Of a DNA stretch of 64,000 nucleotides, positions 6,262 to 48,765 are shown piece by piece. Below the pieces are notes generated by a model. It was not told where the DNA came from and searched no databases. It saw only the letters and a program-made list of their open reading frames with translations. The stretch is from an uncultured Erythrobacter sp. (GTDB lineage: Bacteria > Pseudomonadota > Alphaproteobacteria > Sphingomonadales > Sphingomonadaceae). A program made the translations under genes and the position numbers. Location: NCBI GenBank assembly GCA_913055155.1, contig CAJXJR010000008.1, positions 1 through 64,000 of the forward strand, read 5' to 3'. Within the stretch, counting starts at the first letter, position 1; the number at the start of each line of letters is the position of its first letter.

Positions 6262-7827
6262 TCAGCGCGGAGGCTCTCCGGCAGGTGCTTCACCTTCGGC
6301 CACGGGCTTGGGCTTCCTGCTGAACAGCACGCGGTCTTCGGGGCCGAAGCCCTTGGTCCAGATGATCGCGCCATAGACCGCCAGGATTGCCGGGATGCCG
6401 AAGGCCAGTTCCGCCCACTCGGGCAGCATGATCGCCATCTGGCCCACCAGCACGGCAGCCCCTGCCGCCCACACCAGCGCCCAGCGCCAGTTGTTGATCG
6501 AATGGCCCAGGATGCGGCTGAGCATCACTGCCTTCACCAGCGAGGCAACGGCCAGCGACACCATCAGCGCTGCCGCGGCGGCCGCGGCACGGTAGATGTC
6601 GGCGCGCTGCGGATCGGCGAAGTCCATCTGGTCGATCACCAGCATGGCCACCACCGTCAATATGGCCTGCAAGACGATGGTGCCGATCGACACCCACAGG
6701 TTGCGCACCCGCGCGACATAGATCAGCGCCGCTTCGGAAACGACAGCCGTGGCTGCCACCACTTCGGCCGCCAGCAGGAAGACCAGCGCCGCCGTGCCCG
6801 GCACGAATTCGCCGGCATCGCCCATCAGGCCCATCAGCGCCTCGCCCGGGATGCCCAGCGCCAGCGCGATGCCCGCCTGCGCGGCGACGATCCAGAAGCC
6901 TACCTGGCACACCTGCCGGGCGATGGCGGCAAAGTCCTTCACCTTCAGCTTGGCGGTGATGACCGGGCCCAGGATCGGCTCGAAACTGGTTTTCAGCTTC
7001 TGCGGCAAGCTGGCAACCTGCTGCGCCATCCAGTAGATGCCCAGCGCCACCGGGCCGGCAAACCAGCCAAGGATCAGCAGGTCCACCCGCCGCGTGCCCC
7101 ATTCGATGGCGTCGGTGACGGCCAGCGGCAGCGCGCGGGTCACCATCGGCACCAGGCGAGAGGGGCGTGGCGACCAGGCACGGGGCAGGCCATAAGTCCT
7201 GAAGAACGGCACCAGCGCGGTGGCAAGCCCGGCAAAGATCGACGCGAGATAGGCCAGCGTCAGGCCTGCATCGCCGATGGCAGGCACGAACCAGAAGGCC
7301 CCGGCAAGGATCGAGATCGTCCACGGCTCCACCACGGCGCGGGCGCGCACGGTGGTGCCGATATCGTATTTGTAGGCCTGGGCGGCCAGCACGATTTCGG
7401 TCAGCGCATAGCCGGGGATGGCCAGCACGATCCAGCGATCGAGCGGGTGCGACATCCCGTTGGGAAACAGCGGGGCGGGCCAGAAGAAGAAGACGGCGGC
7501 CAGCACGCCGGAGAACACCAGCGCCACCACCATGGAATCCGCGATCAGCCCGGTCTCGTCGGTTTCGCCCTCGCGCAGGCGCTGGGCGAGGCCGCGCTTT
7601 TCCCCGATCGAGCAGACCAGTGCAGTCAGTTCCACCACCAGCAGGGCATAGGCGTAGACGCCCAGCGCCTCTGCCCCGTACAGCTGGCCGGCGATGAACA
7701 GGAACGGCAGCCGCGCCAGCAGGCGCAGCACGAAGCCGAAGAAATTGGTGCGCCCGCCCTTGGCCAGCGCGGCAATATCGCCGCCGGGCTTGTCGGCTTC
7801 TTCCGCGCTTGGATTCAGCCTGCTCAA
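6262..7827 (-). CDS. polysaccharide/lipopolysaccharide flippase (Wzx/MOP family)
   Basis: 521 residues with about 12-14 hydrophobic helices, opening with GRTNFFGFVLRLLARLPFLF, which is typical of the polysaccharide transporter branch of the MOP superfamily. Members flip lipid-linked sugar units across the inner membrane. The start ATG overlaps the gpsA stop codon by four bases (ATGA), so the gene is the last of a tsaD-gpsA-flippase operon. The C-terminal tail (DRVLFSRKPKPVAEGEAP) is cytoplasmic and Pro-rich. The substrate cannot be told, and there are no glycosyltransferase genes around it. Confidence 0.8.
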   Translation of the reverse strand: MSRLNPSAEEADKPGGDIAALAKGGRTNFFGFVLRLLARLPFLFIAGQLYGAEALGVYAYALLVVELTALVCSIGEKRGLAQRLREGETDETGLIADSMVVALVFSGVLAAVFFFWPAPLFPNGMSHPLDRWIVLAIPGYALTEIVLAAQAYKYDIGTTVRARAVVEPWTISILAGAFWFVPAIGDAGLTLAYLASIFAGLATALVPFFRTYGLPRAWSPRPSRLVPMVTRALPLAVTDAIEWGTRRVDLLILGWFAGPVALGIYWMAQQVASLPQKLKTSFEPILGPVITAKLKVKDFAAIARQVCQVGFWIVAAQAGIALALGIPGEALMGLMGDAGEFVPGTAALVFLLAAEVVAATAVVSEAALIYVARVRNLWVSIGTIVLQAILTVVAMLVIDQMDFADPQRADIYRAAAAAAALMVSLAVASLVKAVMLSRILGHSINNWRWALVWAAGAAVLVGQMAIMLPEWAELAFGIPAILAVYGAIIWTKGFGPEDRVLFSRKPKPVAEGEAPAGEPPR

Positions 7828-29499: not shown

Positions 29500-29551
29500 G
29501 CGGCTGCGGGCCACGCGGTCCCAACGCCGCGCGAGCTCTCTGTAAGGAGAG
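29500..29551 (+). promoter_or_regulatory. serC leader RNA (SD-overlapping)
   Basis: Two stems precede serC. The first is GGGCC-ACGC-GGTCCC (29508-29522), extended by GCGGC/GCCGC (29500-29504 with 29526-29530). The second is CTCTC (29536-29540) with GAGAG (29547-29551), and it covers part of the AAGGAG ribosome site (29544-29549). The known alphaproteobacterial serC leader also ends in a stem that overlaps the serC ribosome site. A possible -35 (TTGACT) is at 29473. The ligand or signal is unknown. Confidence 0.65.
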
Positions 29552-29559
29552 AATACATT

Positions 29560-42930: not shown

Positions 42931-44211
42931 GTGGACCATTTCCAGTTGAAGAACGGCGCAATGTACGCCGAGGACGTGCCGCTTTCGCGCATCGCGGAAG
43001 AAGTGGGCACGCCCGTCTACGTCTATTCGCGCGCCACGCTTGAACGCCACGCGCGCGTGTTCCGCGAAGGGCTGGCCCCGGTGGCAGAGGCGAGCGGGCG
43101 TGAGCCGCTGTGCGCCTTTGCGGTGAAGGCCAATCCCAACCTTGCCGTGCTGAAAGTGCTGAGCCGCGAGGGCTTCGGCGCCGACGTGGTCTCGGGCGGG
43201 GAACTGGTGCGCGCGCTGACGGCGGGCGTGCCGGCGGACAAGATCGTCTTTTCCGGTGTCGGCAAGACGCGCGCAGAGCTGCAACTTGGCCTCGACAAGG
43301 CGATCGGCCAGTTCAACATCGAAAGCACCGAGGAAGGCCGCGAACTGGCCGAGCTGGCCGCCAGCCAGGGGCTGGAGGCGCAGGCCACCTTGCGCATCAA
43401 TCCCGATGTCGATGCCAGGACGCACGAGAAGATCTCCACCGGCCGGGCAGAAAACAAGTTCGGCATCCCGCTGGTGCGCGCGCGCGAAGTCTTTGCCGAA
43501 CTGGCGGCGCTGCCGGGGCTGAACCTGCGCGGCGTGGCCGTGCACATCGGTAGCCAGCTGCTCGACCTGGAACCGATGGAAGTGGCCTTTGCCAAGGTCG
43601 GCCAGCTGGTGGCGGACCTGCGCGCCGATGGCCACACCATCACTCACGTTGACCTGGGCGGCGGGCTGGGCGTGCCCTACAAGGCAGGCGACGTACCGCC
43701 CAGCCCGGCTGACTATGGCCGGATGGTGGCCCGCGCGACTGCGGGCTGGGACGTGCACCTCACTTTCGAACCGGGCCGCGTCATCGCGGGCAACGCCGGC
43801 GTGCTATTGACCCGTGTGGTGCGGGTAAAGCGCGGCGGCAACGGCCCGCCGTTCGTGATCGTCGATGCCGCGATGAACGACCTTGCCCGGCCTGCCATGT
43901 ACGGCGCCTGGCACGATTTCGATGCCGTGGCGCCCACCGGCGATCGGATGGTCGCCAATATCGTCGGCCCAATCTGCGAGACGGGCGATACCTTTGCCAC
44001 GGACCGCGAGGTCGATGCGCTGCAATCGGGCGATCTTGCGGTGTTCCGCACCGCGGGCGCCTATGGCGCGACCATGGCCAGCAGCTACAACTCGCGCGGG
44101 TTCGTGCCCGAAGTGCTGGTCGACGGGGACAAGTACGCCGTCGTCGCCGATCGCATCCCCGCCGATGCCATCATGGACGCAGAGCGCGTGCCGGACTTCC
44201 TGCAGGACTGA
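42931..44211 (+). CDS. lysA: diaminopimelate decarboxylase
   Basis: 426 residues from GTG at 42931. The PLP Lys is in LCAFAVKANPNLAVLK. GADVVSGGELVRA, GVAVHIGSQLLDLEP and the Gly-rich GGGLGVPY with EPGRVIAGNAG follow the fold type III pattern. GPICETGDTFATDRE supplies the Cys. It decarboxylates meso-diaminopimelate to lysine. It follows the argH lipoprotein by 15 bases, and the siroheme synthase gene begins inside its stop codon. Confidence 0.96.
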   Translation: MDHFQLKNGAMYAEDVPLSRIAEEVGTPVYVYSRATLERHARVFREGLAPVAEASGREPLCAFAVKANPNLAVLKVLSREGFGADVVSGGELVRALTAGVPADKIVFSGVGKTRAELQLGLDKAIGQFNIESTEEGRELAELAASQGLEAQATLRINPDVDARTHEKISTGRAENKFGIPLVRAREVFAELAALPGLNLRGVAVHIGSQLLDLEPMEVAFAKVGQLVADLRADGHTITHVDLGGGLGVPYKAGDVPPSPADYGRMVARATAGWDVHLTFEPGRVIAGNAGVLLTRVVRVKRGGNGPPFVIVDAAMNDLARPAMYGAWHDFDAVAPTGDRMVANIVGPICETGDTFATDREVDALQSGDLAVFRTAGAYGATMASSYNSRGFVPEVLVDGDKYAVVADRIPADAIMDAERVPDFLQD

Positions 44212-44990
44212 TGCACTCGCTGCCGCTCTTCCACCGCCTTGCCGGACAGCCGGTGATCGTGCTGGGAGAAGGCGACATGGCCGAGCCCAAGCGGCGGCTG
44301 GTGGAGCGCGCCGGCGGGCGCGTGGTGCGCGACATGCAGGAAGGCATCGACGAAGGTGCGCGCCTGGCCTTCGTGGCGCACGACGATGCGAAGATGTGCG
44401 AAGGCGATGCCATTCGCCTGCGCTGTGCCGGGCTGCTGGTAAACGTGGTCGACCGGCCCGACCTGTGCGATTTCACCACGCCCAGCGTGCTCGATCGCGA
44501 TCCGGTGCTGGTGGCGGTGAGCACGGGCGGCGCCTCTGCCGGTCTTGCCAAGCAATTGCGCTTGCGGCTGGAGAAGCTGCTGCCGGCCGACCTTGGCGCA
44601 CTGGCGGACAAGCTGTTTTCCATGCGCGAGGCTATCAAGGCGCGCTTTCCCGACATGGCCACGCGGCGCCGCGCCCTCGACGAGGCGCTGGGTGAGGGGG
44701 GCATGCTCGATCCGCTGGCGACGGAGGGTGAATCCCGCGTGCAAGCCTGGCTGGACGAGGCCGATTACAGCGAGGCCGATCGTACAGAAATTGTAACCCT
44801 TTCCAGCGATGATCCGGATGACCTGACCATCCGCCAGGCCCGCTTGCTGGGCAGCGCCGACGCGGTAATTGCCGACCCGGCTAGCCCGCCCGCCGTGCTC
44901 GCCCGCGCCAGGGCCGATGCGCAGCGGCTGTCATTGCCGCACGACGGGCCCATGCCGAAAGGCCTGGTGGTGGTGCTGCACCGCGCCTGA
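44211..44990 (+). CDS. precorrin-2 dehydrogenase/siroheme synthase with SUMT remnant
   Basis: 259 residues. The N-terminal NAD-binding domain is PVIVLGEGDMAEPKRRL, and VNVVDRPDLCDFTTPSVLD is the CysG-type motif with the catalytic Asp. It makes sirohydrochlorin and then siroheme from precorrin-2. After about residue 195 the sequence IVTLSSDDPDDLTIRQARLL, GSADAVIADPASPPAVLARA and RADAQRL resembles the first 45 residues of a uroporphyrinogen methyltransferase. It lacks the GAGPGD motif and the rest of that domain. It is the last gene of the argH-lysA run. Confidence 0.85.
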   Translation: MHSLPLFHRLAGQPVIVLGEGDMAEPKRRLVERAGGRVVRDMQEGIDEGARLAFVAHDDAKMCEGDAIRLRCAGLLVNVVDRPDLCDFTTPSVLDRDPVLVAVSTGGASAGLAKQLRLRLEKLLPADLGALADKLFSMREAIKARFPDMATRRRALDEALGEGGMLDPLATEGESRVQAWLDEADYSEADRTEIVTLSSDDPDDLTIRQARLLGSADAVIADPASPPAVLARARADAQRLSLPHDGPMPKGLVVVLHRA

Positions 44991-45053: not shown

Positions 45054-45092
45054 CTCCTGCAGAAACGGCAAGGTGTCGTTTCATTGCAGGAG
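45054..45092 (+). promoter_or_regulatory. hairpin that buries the ribosome site of the small peptide gene
   Basis: CTCCTGCA (45054-45061) pairs with TGCAGGAG (45085-45092), and GAAACG (45062-45067) pairs with CGTTTC (45077-45082), with a two-base bulge and a 9-base loop. This 14-bp stem fully encloses CAGGAG, the ribosome site of the gene at 45102. Opening it would be needed for translation. No known riboswitch class is evident. Confidence 0.65.
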
Positions 45093-45101
45093 ACCACGAA
45101 C

Positions 45102-45257
45102 ATGAAACTGCCCAAGATCGATCTGGCAAGCCTGCCCGATCTCGACACGCTGACCGGATTTTTCGGTTCCATGCGCAATCCCGGCCAGGAAGACTCGGTG
45201 ATCGTGCTGGCCACCGTCGTCTACGATAGCAATCCGCCCGGCAGCGGCCTGATCTGA
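45102..45257 (+). CDS. 51-residue peptide of unknown function, possible precursor peptide
   Basis: The ATG at 45102 follows AGGAG with a 9-base gap. The product opens MKLPKIDLASLPDLDTLTGF and ends VVYDSNPPGSGLI, with GSMRNPGQED in between. It has no Cys and no signal peptide. An amphipathic first part and a short hydrophobic/Tyr-Pro-Gly last part look like leader and core of a ribosomal peptide, but no known class fits. The gene is 11 bases before the HEAT protein gene and its ribosome site is held in a strong hairpin, so expression seems controlled. Function unknown. Confidence 0.6.
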   Translation: MKLPKIDLASLPDLDTLTGFFGSMRNPGQEDSVIVLATVVYDSNPPGSGLI

Positions 45258-45267
45258 GCCTGTCGCG

Positions 45268-46237
45268 GTGCAGGTCCATCCCGACATCGCAGCGTTGCGG
45301 AGCGACCGCGCTCCGCAACGCGAGGCGCAGACCGCCATCCTCGCTGCCCGCGACGGCTGGGCGGCGGAGCCCGGCGCGGCGGCAATGCAGGCCGAGCTGG
45401 AAGCCTATGGCAAGGGCGCACCGCTGGATGCCTGCCCCACGCTGGAGGCAATGTTCACCGAAAGTGGCGAGGCCGAGCGGTTGATGAACCTGATGAGCCG
45501 GCACTATTGCCGCGCCATTGCCGCCAACCCGATCGGCCATCCGCCTTTCCGACAGGGCTACGACGGCAAGTCCACCTCCATCCTTCTGGCCCGCACAGGC
45601 CGCGCGCAGCTGCTGATCCAGGCGCGCGAGCCGGGGGCAATGGACAATGCCAGCCATGCTTTTCTGCGATGCCACCCGCTTCGATGCGGTGCTGGCAGGC
45701 GCCGGCGACGCGCGCATCGTGCGCATTGCCGGCCATGACGGGGAGGGTGTGCGCCTGAGCCAGGAACCGCTCGCCTTGCGCCCCGGCCATCGGCTGGCCT
45801 TCGACCTGAATTCGGAAACCCTTGCCGTCGACAGCGTGGATCGGCGGCTGGTCGTGCTGCGCCTGCTGCGCATGGCGCCAGAGCCTGCACCGGGCCGCGA
45901 ATACGATGCTGCCAGTGGCAGGTTATTGCACCGCAGTGCGGGCCGCATCGGCACCAGCCGGCGCGAAGCCATCATTGCCTTGCTGGGCCGCATGGGCCGG
46001 GCCGACGCTGCACCGCAAATCGCCCGCGTCGCCCTTGACGAAGGCGACCCCTCGCTGCGCTGGCAGGCCCTGCGTGAAGCGCTGGCGCTGGATACCGCCA
46101 CCGGATTTCGCGCGCTGGCAAGCGTGGCGCGCCGCGGCGAGGATCCGCTGGCGGCGCAGGCGGGTGCCTTGCGCGCGCAATTGCTCGAGACTCATCCCGA
46201 ACTTGCCCAGCTGGAGACCGGCCCATGCCCCGCGTAA
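45268..46237 (+). CDS. HEAT-repeat protein split by a +1 frameshift
   Basis: The first part (from GTG at 45268) runs in one frame through GYDGKSTSILLARTGRAQ and AREPGAMDNA. Sense then continues one base out of frame as MLFCDATRFDAVLAGAGDAR from about 45656, to the stop at 46237. Deleting one C near 45655 (AGCCATG to AGCATG) restores about 322 residues in one frame. The C-terminal half has helical repeats (SRREAIIALLGRMGRADAAP, EGDPSLRWQALREALALDT), consistent with HEAT repeats. The N-terminal half is unknown. Either a real frameshift, a sequencing error or two overlapping genes (45268-45738, 45647-46237) is possible. Confidence 0.55.
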
Positions 46238-47124
46238 TCGACATCCAGGACGAGGCCGCCTGCGAGCTTGGCGACTGCCTCGAAGCGCTCGAGAGCGAAG
46301 GCTACAAGCCCTACGAGGAAGAGAGCCTTCTGCATGCGGCCAACTGGCTCCGGCGGCTGGGCAACAACCGCACGTTCCTGGGCGACATGCTGCTGGAGGA
46401 GCTGAAGCAGGGCGTCGACGTGGCCGAAGATGCCAGCAGCTATGGCCCGCAGGTCGTCATGCTCTCCGGCCTGGGCCACGAATACTACATGCGCGCCAAT
46501 TTCTGGCCGAGTGCTGACGAACACATGTTCCGCGCCAGCGGGTCCTCCGCCTTCGCCTATGAATTGCCGCACGACCACAACTTCGATTTCCTCACCGTGG
46601 GCTATTTCGGCCCCGGCTATTCGAGCGACTATTACGAGTACGATTACGAAGCCGTCGCGGGCGCGATCGGTGAGAAAGCGGGCCTGCGTTTCATCGAGCG
46701 TTCCCGCCTCGATCCCGGCAAGCTGATGCTCTACCGCGCGCATGTGGACGTGCATTCGCAATTGCCGCCGACAAGCCTCTCCGTTTCCATCAACATCATG
46801 CATGCCGGCGGGGCGCAGGGCTTGCTCGATCAATACAAGTTCGATGTCGAGAAAGACGAGATATCCGGTGTGATCAGCCCGGGCGGGAGCGAGGTGTTCC
46901 TGCGCGTGGCGGTCGGCCTGGGGGGCGAAGAGGCGCGCGACCTTGCGCACAGCTTCGCCGGGTCGCACCCCAGCGACCGGATGCGGCTGGTGGCACTGGA
47001 AGCGCAGGCGGGCGTGCTTGGTCCGTGCGAGCGGGACGAGCTGTGGCGCCGCGCGGAAGGTTCCGGCAGCCGCCTGGTTTCCATGGAGGCCACGCGGCGG
47101 CGGCGGGAACTTCAGCTGGTCTAG
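46225..47124 (+). CDS. cupin-like protein with His cluster, unknown function
   Basis: 299 residues with GGAG about seven bases before the ATG. It overlaps the previous stop codon by 13 bases. The centre has YELPHDHNFDFLTVGYFGPG, with His116 and His118 on one strand, and RAHVDVHSQLPP, with His173 and His177 on a later one after SRLDPGKLMLY. Two His-rich strands around a DPGKL turn are typical of the double-stranded beta-helix (cupin) metal site. A non-heme iron or other metal enzyme is plausible but unproven. It closes a cassette with the 51-residue peptide. Confidence 0.6.
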   Translation: MPRVIDIQDEAACELGDCLEALESEGYKPYEEESLLHAANWLRRLGNNRTFLGDMLLEELKQGVDVAEDASSYGPQVVMLSGLGHEYYMRANFWPSADEHMFRASGSSAFAYELPHDHNFDFLTVGYFGPGYSSDYYEYDYEAVAGAIGEKAGLRFIERSRLDPGKLMLYRAHVDVHSQLPPTSLSVSINIMHAGGAQGLLDQYKFDVEKDEISGVISPGGSEVFLRVAVGLGGEEARDLAHSFAGSHPSDRMRLVALEAQAGVLGPCERDELWRRAEGSGSRLVSMEATRRRRELQLV

Positions 47125-47143
47125 AGGATCCTGCCTAGAGGAT
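47121..47143. repeat. short direct repeat CTAGAGGAT
   Basis: CTAGAGGAT occurs at 47121-47129 and 47135-47143, each carrying a stop codon (for the cupin-like gene on plus, for ruvX on minus). It may be a small tandem duplication at the junction of two convergent genes. Confidence 0.4.
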
Positions 47144-47632
47144 TCCACCCGCCAGCCGGTCTATCGCACCTTGCAGGATTACCGCAGCGGCATGGCTGTC
47201 GATCCGCTCCGCGCGCTTGCCGCGGCTCATGTCCTGCGCGATCATGTCGCGCTCTGCACTGGCGGTGGACCAGCGTTCGTCCCACAGCAGCACCGGCAGG
47301 CCAAGACCGTTCTGCGAGCCTGCCAGGTTGCGGGCAAAAGCGCGGCTGGCCTGCGCGCGCGGACCGCTGCTGCCATCCATGTTGAGCGGCAGGCCGATCA
47401 CCACGCCCGCTACGCCGCGCGCCCGGCACAGCTCTTCCAGCGCAGCGCGATCGCGCGAATACTTGCCCTTGGGCAGCGTCTTGGCCGCCGTGGCAAAGCT
47501 CCACCCGGCATCGCACAGCGCCGTGCCGATGGTCTTGCTGCCCAAGTCCAGCCCCAGCAGCACGCCGCCTTCGGGCAGCGCGTCGCGGAACGTGGCGGCG
47601 TCTTCGGTTACGAGGGCTGGGCTGGCTGCCAT
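47135..47632 (-). CDS. ruvX: RuvX/YqgF nuclease (Holliday junction resolvase-like)
   Basis: 165 residues. LLGLDLGSKTIGTALCD, VVIGLPLNMDGSSGPRAQ and LLWDERWSTASAERDM show the RNase H-like fold with conserved Asp residues. RIDSHAAAVILQGAIDR at the end has the last conserved Asp. YqgF proteins act in rRNA processing or on recombination intermediates. The Met at 47632 is the conserved start region. The start overlaps the 3' end of the DUF3089 gene by 25 bases, so it is probably the last gene of that transcript. Confidence 0.9.
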   Translation of the reverse strand: MAASPALVTEDAATFRDALPEGGVLLGLDLGSKTIGTALCDAGWSFATAAKTLPKGKYSRDRAALEELCRARGVAGVVIGLPLNMDGSSGPRAQASRAFARNLAGSQNGLGLPVLLWDERWSTASAERDMIAQDMSRGKRAERIDSHAAAVILQGAIDRLAGGIL

Positions 47633-48765
47633 GCGCGCACCCGCGTGACCACGTCCTGCTGCAGGTTCCGCCAGAACAGCGGGATATCGTAGACGTGGTA
47701 GTTGTTGCCCGGCAGCACGTACTGGCCAAGGTCGGGCGGATCGCCGATCAGCAGGATACCGGTGGCCGGATCGCAGCGCGCGGGCACGGCGCCCGCCACC
47801 AGTTCGCCATGGGCCAGGTCTTCGTCCGGCACCAGCGTGCCCAGGTTTCGGTCTGCCGGGGCGGTATTGTTCAGCGTGCCGGTAAGCGGGTTTACGCACA
47901 GGATCGGCGTGCCCGCGCGCGATTGCCCGTCGATGCCGGGGGTTTCGTTGTAGAGGCGCAGGTACTGGTCGGTCTCGGCAGGCTCGGCAAAGCTGGCCCA
48001 GCTGGCGATGCAGCCGGCCTGCTGCGCGCTGGCGCAGGCGGGCAGCCCCAGTTCGGGCAGGTCGGTCTGGATCGAGATCGGCATGCCGATGGGATAGGCG
48101 GCGGCCACGCGGCCTGCCAGCGGCGTGCCTTTCACCTTGTCCAGCAGCAGGCGGGTGACGTGATATCCGCCCTGGCTGTGCCCGGCCAGCACGATGGGCA
48201 TGTCTTCGGGCACGCTGTCGATGAAGAAATCGAAGGCTGCGGAAACGTCGGCATAGGCGGCGTTCAGCGCGCGGCCCGCTTCGGGCGCGTCGGTCAGGAA
48301 GGCGCCGTAGGTCGCCTGGCGATAGCGCGGCACCCAGATCTCGCTCGCCCGGTTGAAGGCGCTTGCCATGCCGCGCACCATGACGCGAGCGCGGTCCTGC
48401 GACAGGTCATCGTCCAGCGGCGCGTTCCACGCATCGTTTTCCATGAAGCTGGTGGGGTGGACGAAGAACACCGCGAACCGCGGCGCCTCTTCCTCGGCTG
48501 GCTCGGCAGGCGTGGGCAGCAGCGATCGTTCTTCGCTGAAGGCGGGCTGCCAGCGCGCCGGATCGTTCAGTGCGCCCTTGCCGGGGCGGCTGAACCACAT
48601 GGCCGGATCCTGGTAGGCATTCTCCTCCAGCGCATCCTGCTCGACGAATTCCACGCTCGGCACCAGCGCCAGCTCGGTCAGTTCCTCGGCGTAGATGCGC
48701 AGCACGAACAGGCCGGCGATCACCAGCACGATGAGGATGGCGACGATGTACAGGAATCTACGCAG
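47608..48765 (-). CDS. DUF3089 alpha/beta hydrolase, apparent CTG start
   Basis: 385 residues if started at CTG 48765, six bases after a perfect AGGAGG. The first in-frame standard start is GTG at 48729, 12 codons later, and would remove part of the membrane helix. With CTG the product begins MRRFLYIVAILIVLVIAGLF, a membrane anchor. The hydrolase body has APRFAVFFVHPTSFMEND, IVLAGHSQGGYHVTRLLL (catalytic Ser) and VYDIPLFWRN. The family is lysophospholipase-like and faces the periplasm. The start lies inside the upstream gene's last codons, so translation is coupled. Confidence 0.8.
   Translation of the reverse strand: MRRFLYIVAILIVLVIAGLFVLRIYAEELTELALVPSVEFVEQDALEENAYQDPAMWFSRPGKGALNDPARWQPAFSEERSLLPTPAEPAEEEAPRFAVFFVHPTSFMENDAWNAPLDDDLSQDRARVMVRGMASAFNRASEIWVPRYRQATYGAFLTDAPEAGRALNAAYADVSAAFDFFIDSVPEDMPIVLAGHSQGGYHVTRLLLDKVKGTPLAGRVAAAYPIGMPISIQTDLPELGLPACASAQQAGCIASWASFAEPAETDQYLRLYNETPGIDGQSRAGTPILCVNPLTGTLNNTAPADRNLGTLVPDEDLAHGELVAGAVPARCDPATGILLIGDPPDLGQYVLPGNNYHVYDIPLFWRNLQQDVVTRVRAWQPAQPS

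Follow-up and report, generated by a model that had tools for sequence, protein, structure and literature searches.

A cupin–HEAT cassette with a candidate RiPP precursor gene in sphingomonads and a few other proteobacteria

The window, by which we mean the whole stretch of 64,000 nucleotides that was analysed, derives from an uncultured Erythrobacter sp. and carries three co-directional genes packed closely together at 45102-47124, delineated from the list of open reading frames and from the sequence itself. The run is preceded by a CysG-like gene (44211-44990, forward) and followed by ruvX/yqgF (47138-47899, reverse). A first-pass annotation had described a trio of near-touching or overlapping genes here, and the coordinates agree: the second gene starts at a GTG at 45268, ten bases past the stop of the first, and overlaps by 13 bases the third, whose ATG lies at 46225. 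The features of the locus are as follows.

45088-45092, forward: Shine-Dalgarno-like AGGAG of the peptide gene, read from the sequence
45102-45257, forward: 51-residue precursor-like peptide, MKLPKIDLASLPDLDTLTGFFGS-linker-EDSVIVLATVVYDSNPPGSGLI, from the open reading frame and its homologues
45102-45188, forward: putative leader part (I-D-L-x-x-L-P-D-L motif) with linker, from conservation
45189-45254, forward: putative core part, Val/Ile-rich; a hydrophobic C-terminal tail is common to most remote precursors
45268-46237, forward: partner, a predicted cupin barrel that lacks the metal ligands and is followed by HEAT repeats at the C-terminus, from relatives, the fold of an intact homologue (L053) and a weak HEAT_2 match
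46225-47124, forward: 299-residue catalytic-type three-histidine (3-His) cupin with C-terminal HEAT-like helices, from the open reading frame, predicted fold and alignment
46570-46578, forward: His116 and His118 (H-D-H), putative metal ligands 1 and 2, from alignment conservation
46753-46755, forward: His177, putative metal ligand 3, from alignment conservation

A pattern search found neither a sigma-70 promoter nor a terminator, and none of the window neighbours scanned is an exporter. Elsewhere in the window, positions 29504-29556 match the Rfam serC leader above its gathering score. The third gene is present in a single copy in this genome, and the closest full-length named match to its protein, at 85%, comes from Aurantiacibacter rhizosphaerae, which would place the window in that part of the Sphingomonadaceae. 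No curated Pfam or NCBIfam cut-off is reached by any of the three genes, nor did either collection match any of them to a protease or radical SAM family. Model-based annotation and cluster finders would therefore probably miss the system. The first-pass annotation recognised no named family among the three; HEAT repeats aside, none in Pfam, NCBIfam or PADLOC fits the parts scanned.

The cassette is common in sphingomonads and also occurs in a few other proteobacteria, and the trio recurs in the same order across relatives, which points to more than chance. With the window's own genome counted, the third protein is present in 27 of 61 relatives and, within the window's own family, in 137 of the 397 genomes sampled. 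It was found in 5/385 genomes of a class-wide sample (one outside the family), 15/398 of a phylum-wide sample (two outside the class) and 6/149 of a sample of another family. Relatives occur in two of 72,556 plasmid records, from Alteromonas and Vibrio. No relative was detected in phages at the search sensitivity used, and among viral contigs 18 stretches fitted a pattern and none was confirmed as a relative. Clustering at 98% identity gave 127 distinct cupin loci, of which 120 were usable; the other seven (L027, L028, L091, L093, L108, L156 and the second piece of L103) had too little sequence upstream or matched only part of the cupin, and were left out of the counts. Neighbours on the lepB side are common to 41 of the 51 long loci of the named set, and this shared place looks like the result of vertical inheritance there. 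The Vibrio plasmid relative (L113, 7198-8754; 28% identity) has restriction genes and a Tn3 transposase close by; it shows no hydrophobic peptide upstream and a 59-residue open reading frame downstream.

The 51-codon frame is a gene under purifying selection. By tblastn, the peptide was recovered in 96 of 111 loci, giving 76 distinct genes that encode 75 proteins of 46-62 residues and align as [KN]LPKIDLSSLPDLDTLTG-x-FGS-linker-DD-x-IVVIM-[TV]-x-VY-[ED]. Identity is complete at alignment positions P24 and G39 (76/76 each) and nearly so at L26 (75/76), D64 (74/76) and Y74 (72/76). Median pairwise dN/dS is 0.41, with 99.3% of pairs below 1, as calculated from the 2271 unsaturated pairs out of 2850, which are not independent of one another. 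The conservation on which the cassette idea had been staked is thus present in the small frame. Cysteine is absent from the window's peptide and from 72 of the 76 distinct peptides in its group. The peptide belongs to no Pfam or NCBIfam family, and the 31 family members scanned returned hits at chance level only; the NCBIfam scan took as input the window's own pieces, with the partner consequently entered as split halves, and these 31 peptides.

Peptides ahead of the cassettes were also sought with a mechanical test that called for a ribosome-binding sequence, a length of 34-75 residues and a hydrophobic C-terminal stretch. It was passed upstream of 88/120 cassettes and by 33 of 819 control open reading frames, and adding an [ILVM]-P-x-[ILVM] motif left 80/120 cassettes and 9/819 controls, a control set that includes spurious long frames from GC-rich DNA. 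For one of the 88 (L130), the frame chosen by the test differs from the peptide we favour (7216-7338). The remaining 32 loci fail on the hydrophobic tail: 18 are peptide-positive by tblastn, seven were judged positive by eye (L095, L097, L099, L115, L118, L124 and L136) and seven lack such a peptide. Overall, a peptide of the same make-up lies directly upstream in 113 of 120 loci, the seven judged by eye included. No matching peptide was found at L113, L131, both L145 cassettes, L147, L148 and L149, though L131 and the second L145 cassette have a small peptide of different make-up. On sequence grounds, then, the locus has the arrangement expected of a RiPP system, in which a short conserved precursor, with a putative division into leader and core, is linked to a candidate modifying enzyme.

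The third protein is probably a catalytic-type, non-haem-metal 3-His cupin. Its predicted model (pLDDT 88.7) has a cupin fold with helices added at both ends, and its best Foldseek matches are the thiol dioxygenases 4tlf_D (E 2.8e-8), 8vni, 3uss and 6xb9. An H-x-H motif is a feature of thiol dioxygenases, and His116 and His118 are each histidine in all 119 ungapped rows of the alignment (1/120 gapped), as is His177 in all 118 (2/120 gapped). Even the Vibrio plasmid protein, at 28% identity, retains H-N-H and the later histidine, as judged by eye. The initial description of a cupin-like, putative metal enzyme is matched by a predicted cupin fold with an invariant 3-His site, and at the level of the model these same features place the protein within the thiol dioxygenase fold. 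By sequence it could be matched to no known thiol dioxygenase family, with no Pfam, NCBIfam or usable PDB-sequence match; no cupin or JmjC model in Pfam was matched, and the sole Pfam match was HEAT_2, in one of 31 members. Pfam and fold searches also revealed no DUF692 enzyme, whose fold is a TIM barrel, in the cassette.

The second gene had been read as a HEAT-repeat protein. HEAT helices are indeed present, but the protein also appears to have a cupin barrel and to be distantly homologous to the third protein. In the window its gene is broken, being split over two frames (45268-45738 and 45647-46237) with the change near 45640-45670. Both halves lie in one open frame in 93 of 111 loci, are split in two (the window and L038) and were not both matched in 16, a set that includes the window's own locus and some genomes twice. 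The break may be either a real lesion or a sequence error; in the former case, the pathway is possibly inactive in this genome. The predicted model of an intact partner (L053; pLDDT 93.2) has a barrel followed by HEAT helices and matches auxin-binding protein, vicilins and cysteine dioxygenase (best E 8.1e-7). Pfam HEAT_2 was found in 9/26 partner members, with only a weak hit in the window. Homology places a partner upstream of the cupin in 117 of 120 loci, 110 with a first profile and seven with a wider one, for which E-values were computed for a ten-sequence set. At L147 the profile match covers only a late, short frame, and at L113, one L145 cassette and L149 an open reading frame of 228-247 residues abuts the cupin without a significant partner match. 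Two of these loci (L145, 6710-8357; L149, 2601-4248) hold short, divergent versions of the cassette, with a partner of about 228 residues and a cupin frame of about 251, preceded by an unusual acidic peptide of 43 residues that lacks a hydrophobic tail.

Comparison of wide profiles with hhalign aligned cupin and partner over 239 columns (E 4.2e-7, probability 92.7%), and on this basis we take the two as homologues; with narrower profiles the match was weak, at a probability of 31.5%. In the wide-profile alignment the partner shows no histidine at the ligand places, so that it looks like a non-catalytic homologue of the cupin. The distances of the two proteins also co-vary after lepB is removed (partial r 0.36, permutation p 0.003, n = 41 loci), a modest signal.

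Remote loci, beyond the reach of BLAST, mostly carry a peptide of 36-53 residues directly upstream, with an acidic or mixed leader, often containing I-P-x-L, and a Val/Ile-rich tail. The Asp-Asp and Tyr of the window's group are absent from these peptides, and several of their cores contain cysteine. Precursor genes may be multiplied. The Ferrimonas locus L110 has five in tandem, four of them near-identical and 38-39 residues long, each copy behind a ribosome-binding-like sequence; partner, cupin, Yip1, HlyD, MacB ATPase and MacB permease genes follow. L146 has three copies and the Alteromonas plasmid locus (L112) two, within a common operon plan in which HlyD and a MacB-type ATPase and permease come first; the peptides, the partner and the cupin follow, and then another ABC ATPase with an ABC-2-type permease (a weak match in L146). 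Within the window's own family, L150 (6508-11096) has two tandem cassettes, each behind its own peptide or peptides, with HlyD and a MacB-type ATPase downstream.

Among the 75 loci of 10 kb or more, HlyD together with a MacB-type ATPase was found in five (L110, L112, L146, L147 and L150), ABC ATPase matches alone in L133 and L153, and no match to the exporter queries in any long erythrobacter locus. No protease was identified for the cassette. Six of the same 75 loci have one type of ECF sigma gene upstream. At two loci, L100 (2134-3338) and L150 (5143-6278), an ECF sigma gene and a nameless companion gene stand upstream of the cassette. A 570-residue upstream gene apparently shared by L110 and L112 was rejected; the L110 gene encodes a chemotaxis receptor. 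Downstream of the cassette at L106 (7473-9101) is a TIR-domain protein with a TonB C-terminal domain.

We consider it likely that the cassette is a RiPP-like system in which the 3-His cupin oxidises a hydrophobic core with the assistance of its non-catalytic homologue. The RiPP logic, which the first-pass annotation had raised as a possible ribosomal peptide or peptide-modification system, is well supported by the genomics: the trio recurs, the peptide is conserved with an apparent leader and core, distant relatives have multi-copy precursors and some exporters, and the dedicated pair includes an invariant triad. The oxidation chemistry and the product are our proposal. The small gene would encode a precursor whose N-terminal leader has the form I-D-x-x-x-[LI]-P-x-L followed by G-S; a variable linker would join it to a short C-terminal core rich in Val, Ile and Met. 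The third gene would supply a non-haem-metal 3-His cupin with a cysteine/thiol-dioxygenase fold and HEAT-like helices, and the second its distant homologue, which would have retained the cupin–HEAT architecture and lost all metal ligands. Cupin and partner may form a heterodimer in which the ligand-less partner, the HEAT helices or both hold the precursor leader, and the metal cupin, probably with iron, would then oxidise aliphatic or nearby residues of the core, most simply by hydroxylation. Where HlyD/MacB-type transporters adjoin the cassette, as in Ferrimonas, the Alteromonas plasmid and a few further genomes, they may export the product. Genes, conservation, linkage, predicted folds, homology of the pair, the triad, multi-copy precursors and exporters elsewhere were established by computation; the identity of the metal, the heterodimer, leader binding, oxidation, cleavage and the role of the product belong to the proposal.

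The predicted thiol-dioxygenase fold suggests chemistry with O2. Simple thiol oxidation of the window's peptide is excluded by its lack of cysteine; a small-molecule thiol is a possible substrate of the cupin. Several points count against the proposed system: a thiol dioxygenase would call for a thiol, seven loci lack a peptide of this make-up, the partner gene is broken in the window, no protease and, beside the window cassette and most long loci, no exporter was identified, and the narrower comparison of the pair was weak. Strong conservation of the core and the lack of an adjacent exporter suggest that the erythrobacter product is internal, constitutively needed or cofactor-like. It may act inside the cell, and an arms-race bacteriocin seems less likely than such an internal role.

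These same observations feed the best-surviving alternative, that the cupin pair of sphingomonads makes a small internal cofactor or signal from the peptide, as in PQQ or mycofactocin biosynthesis. The core is kept across genera, with its near-invariant Asp (74/76) and Tyr (72/76), and the erythrobacter copies lack an adjacent exporter and occupy one conserved chromosomal place. However, remote relatives lack the Asp-Asp and Tyr and some have exporters, and the three window genes show no protease or radical SAM match, which makes this explanation unlikely.

The main chemical rival to oxidation is isomerisation. The cupin pair would isomerise or epimerise the Val/Ile run, as a metal-dependent or metal-free isomerase, to yield a peptide containing D-residues that could potentially fold as a beta-helix. 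Isomerases occur among cupins, and known RiPPs with D-Val or D-Ile carry runs of beta-branched residues, as do the cores here. We know of no cupin peptide epimerase, however, and the best-scoring folds are O2-using thiol dioxygenases and the 3-His site of the cupin is invariant, so that we judge isomerisation quite unlikely.

The hydrophobic C-terminal part of the peptide, encoded directly upstream of two co-directional genes, could also belong to a membrane or toxic peptide that the two larger proteins restrain or chaperone, in the manner of a toxin–antitoxin pair. Yet the hydrophobic runs, at about 9-15 residues, would be short for a membrane helix, and an invariant catalytic-type triad would be unexpected in an antitoxin. 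Two results speak against a mobile toxin module: 41 of the 51 long named loci are syntenic on the chromosome, and the defence-system models of PADLOC matched none of four proteins. We regard this reading as very unlikely. Still less credible, and in our view close to negligible, is a translated upstream frame whose only role is to couple the two larger genes in translation. Its stop does lie ten bases ahead of the following start codon, but its amino-acid conservation (dN/dS 0.41) and the near-identical tandem copies in L110 speak against such a role.

Returning to the oxidising RiPP-like system, we put at about even the chance that it constitutes an undescribed RiPP class, in which a cupin–HEAT oxygenase and its own dead homologue act jointly on Val/Ile-rich cores. 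Such a class would have a near-constitutive product in erythrobacters; its members in Ferrimonas, the Alteromonas plasmid and genomes of another taxonomic class would be tied to exporters and draw on multi-copy precursors. No published description of the cassette was found in the open-licence papers searched. If the proposal is true, the RiPP toolbox gains an enzyme family without a Pfam name whose targets may be unactivated aliphatic residues, and the cassette offers a concrete pseudoenzyme–enzyme pair.

Several known systems share parts of this design. The cysteine, 3-mercaptopropionate and mercaptosuccinate dioxygenases (4tlf, 3uss, 6xb9 and 8vni) have the same cupin fold with H-x-H and a distant histidine. 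The cassette cupin differs from them in lacking a significant PDB-sequence or cupin Pfam match and in carrying additional helices at either end, those at the C-terminus being HEAT-like, and it accompanies, in the window, a peptide free of cysteine. Among RiPP clusters, those with NHLP leaders and a cupin-4 protein in sponge symbionts have a cupin predicted beside a leader-bearing precursor, according to the passages of PMC9426513 that deal with them, whereas the precursors here match nothing in Pfam or NCBIfam beyond chance and the cupin has no Pfam cupin match. A Nif11/cupin cluster is on record in Synechococcus, in the relevant passage of PMC10783134. The passages on these systems and on those of PMC12257519 describe no cupin–HEAT pair of comparable build. 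PbsQ and BpmG, as presented in passages of the last of these papers, are cupin-like (JmjC-related) hydroxylases of biphenomycin-type RiPP pathways. They resemble our proposal in that a cupin-like protein acts on a residue of a ribosomal precursor; in those pathways, however, it works alongside further tailoring enzymes, an MNIO and a B12 radical SAM enzyme among them, whereas the cassette cupin is accompanied only by its cupin–HEAT homologue and has no cupin Pfam match. MNIO (DUF692) RiPP systems, as outlined in the same passages (PMC12257519), likewise bring together a non-haem metal enzyme, a partner and a small precursor, but the two protein families of the cassette match HEAT models only in Pfam and are predicted to adopt a cupin rather than a DUF692 fold.
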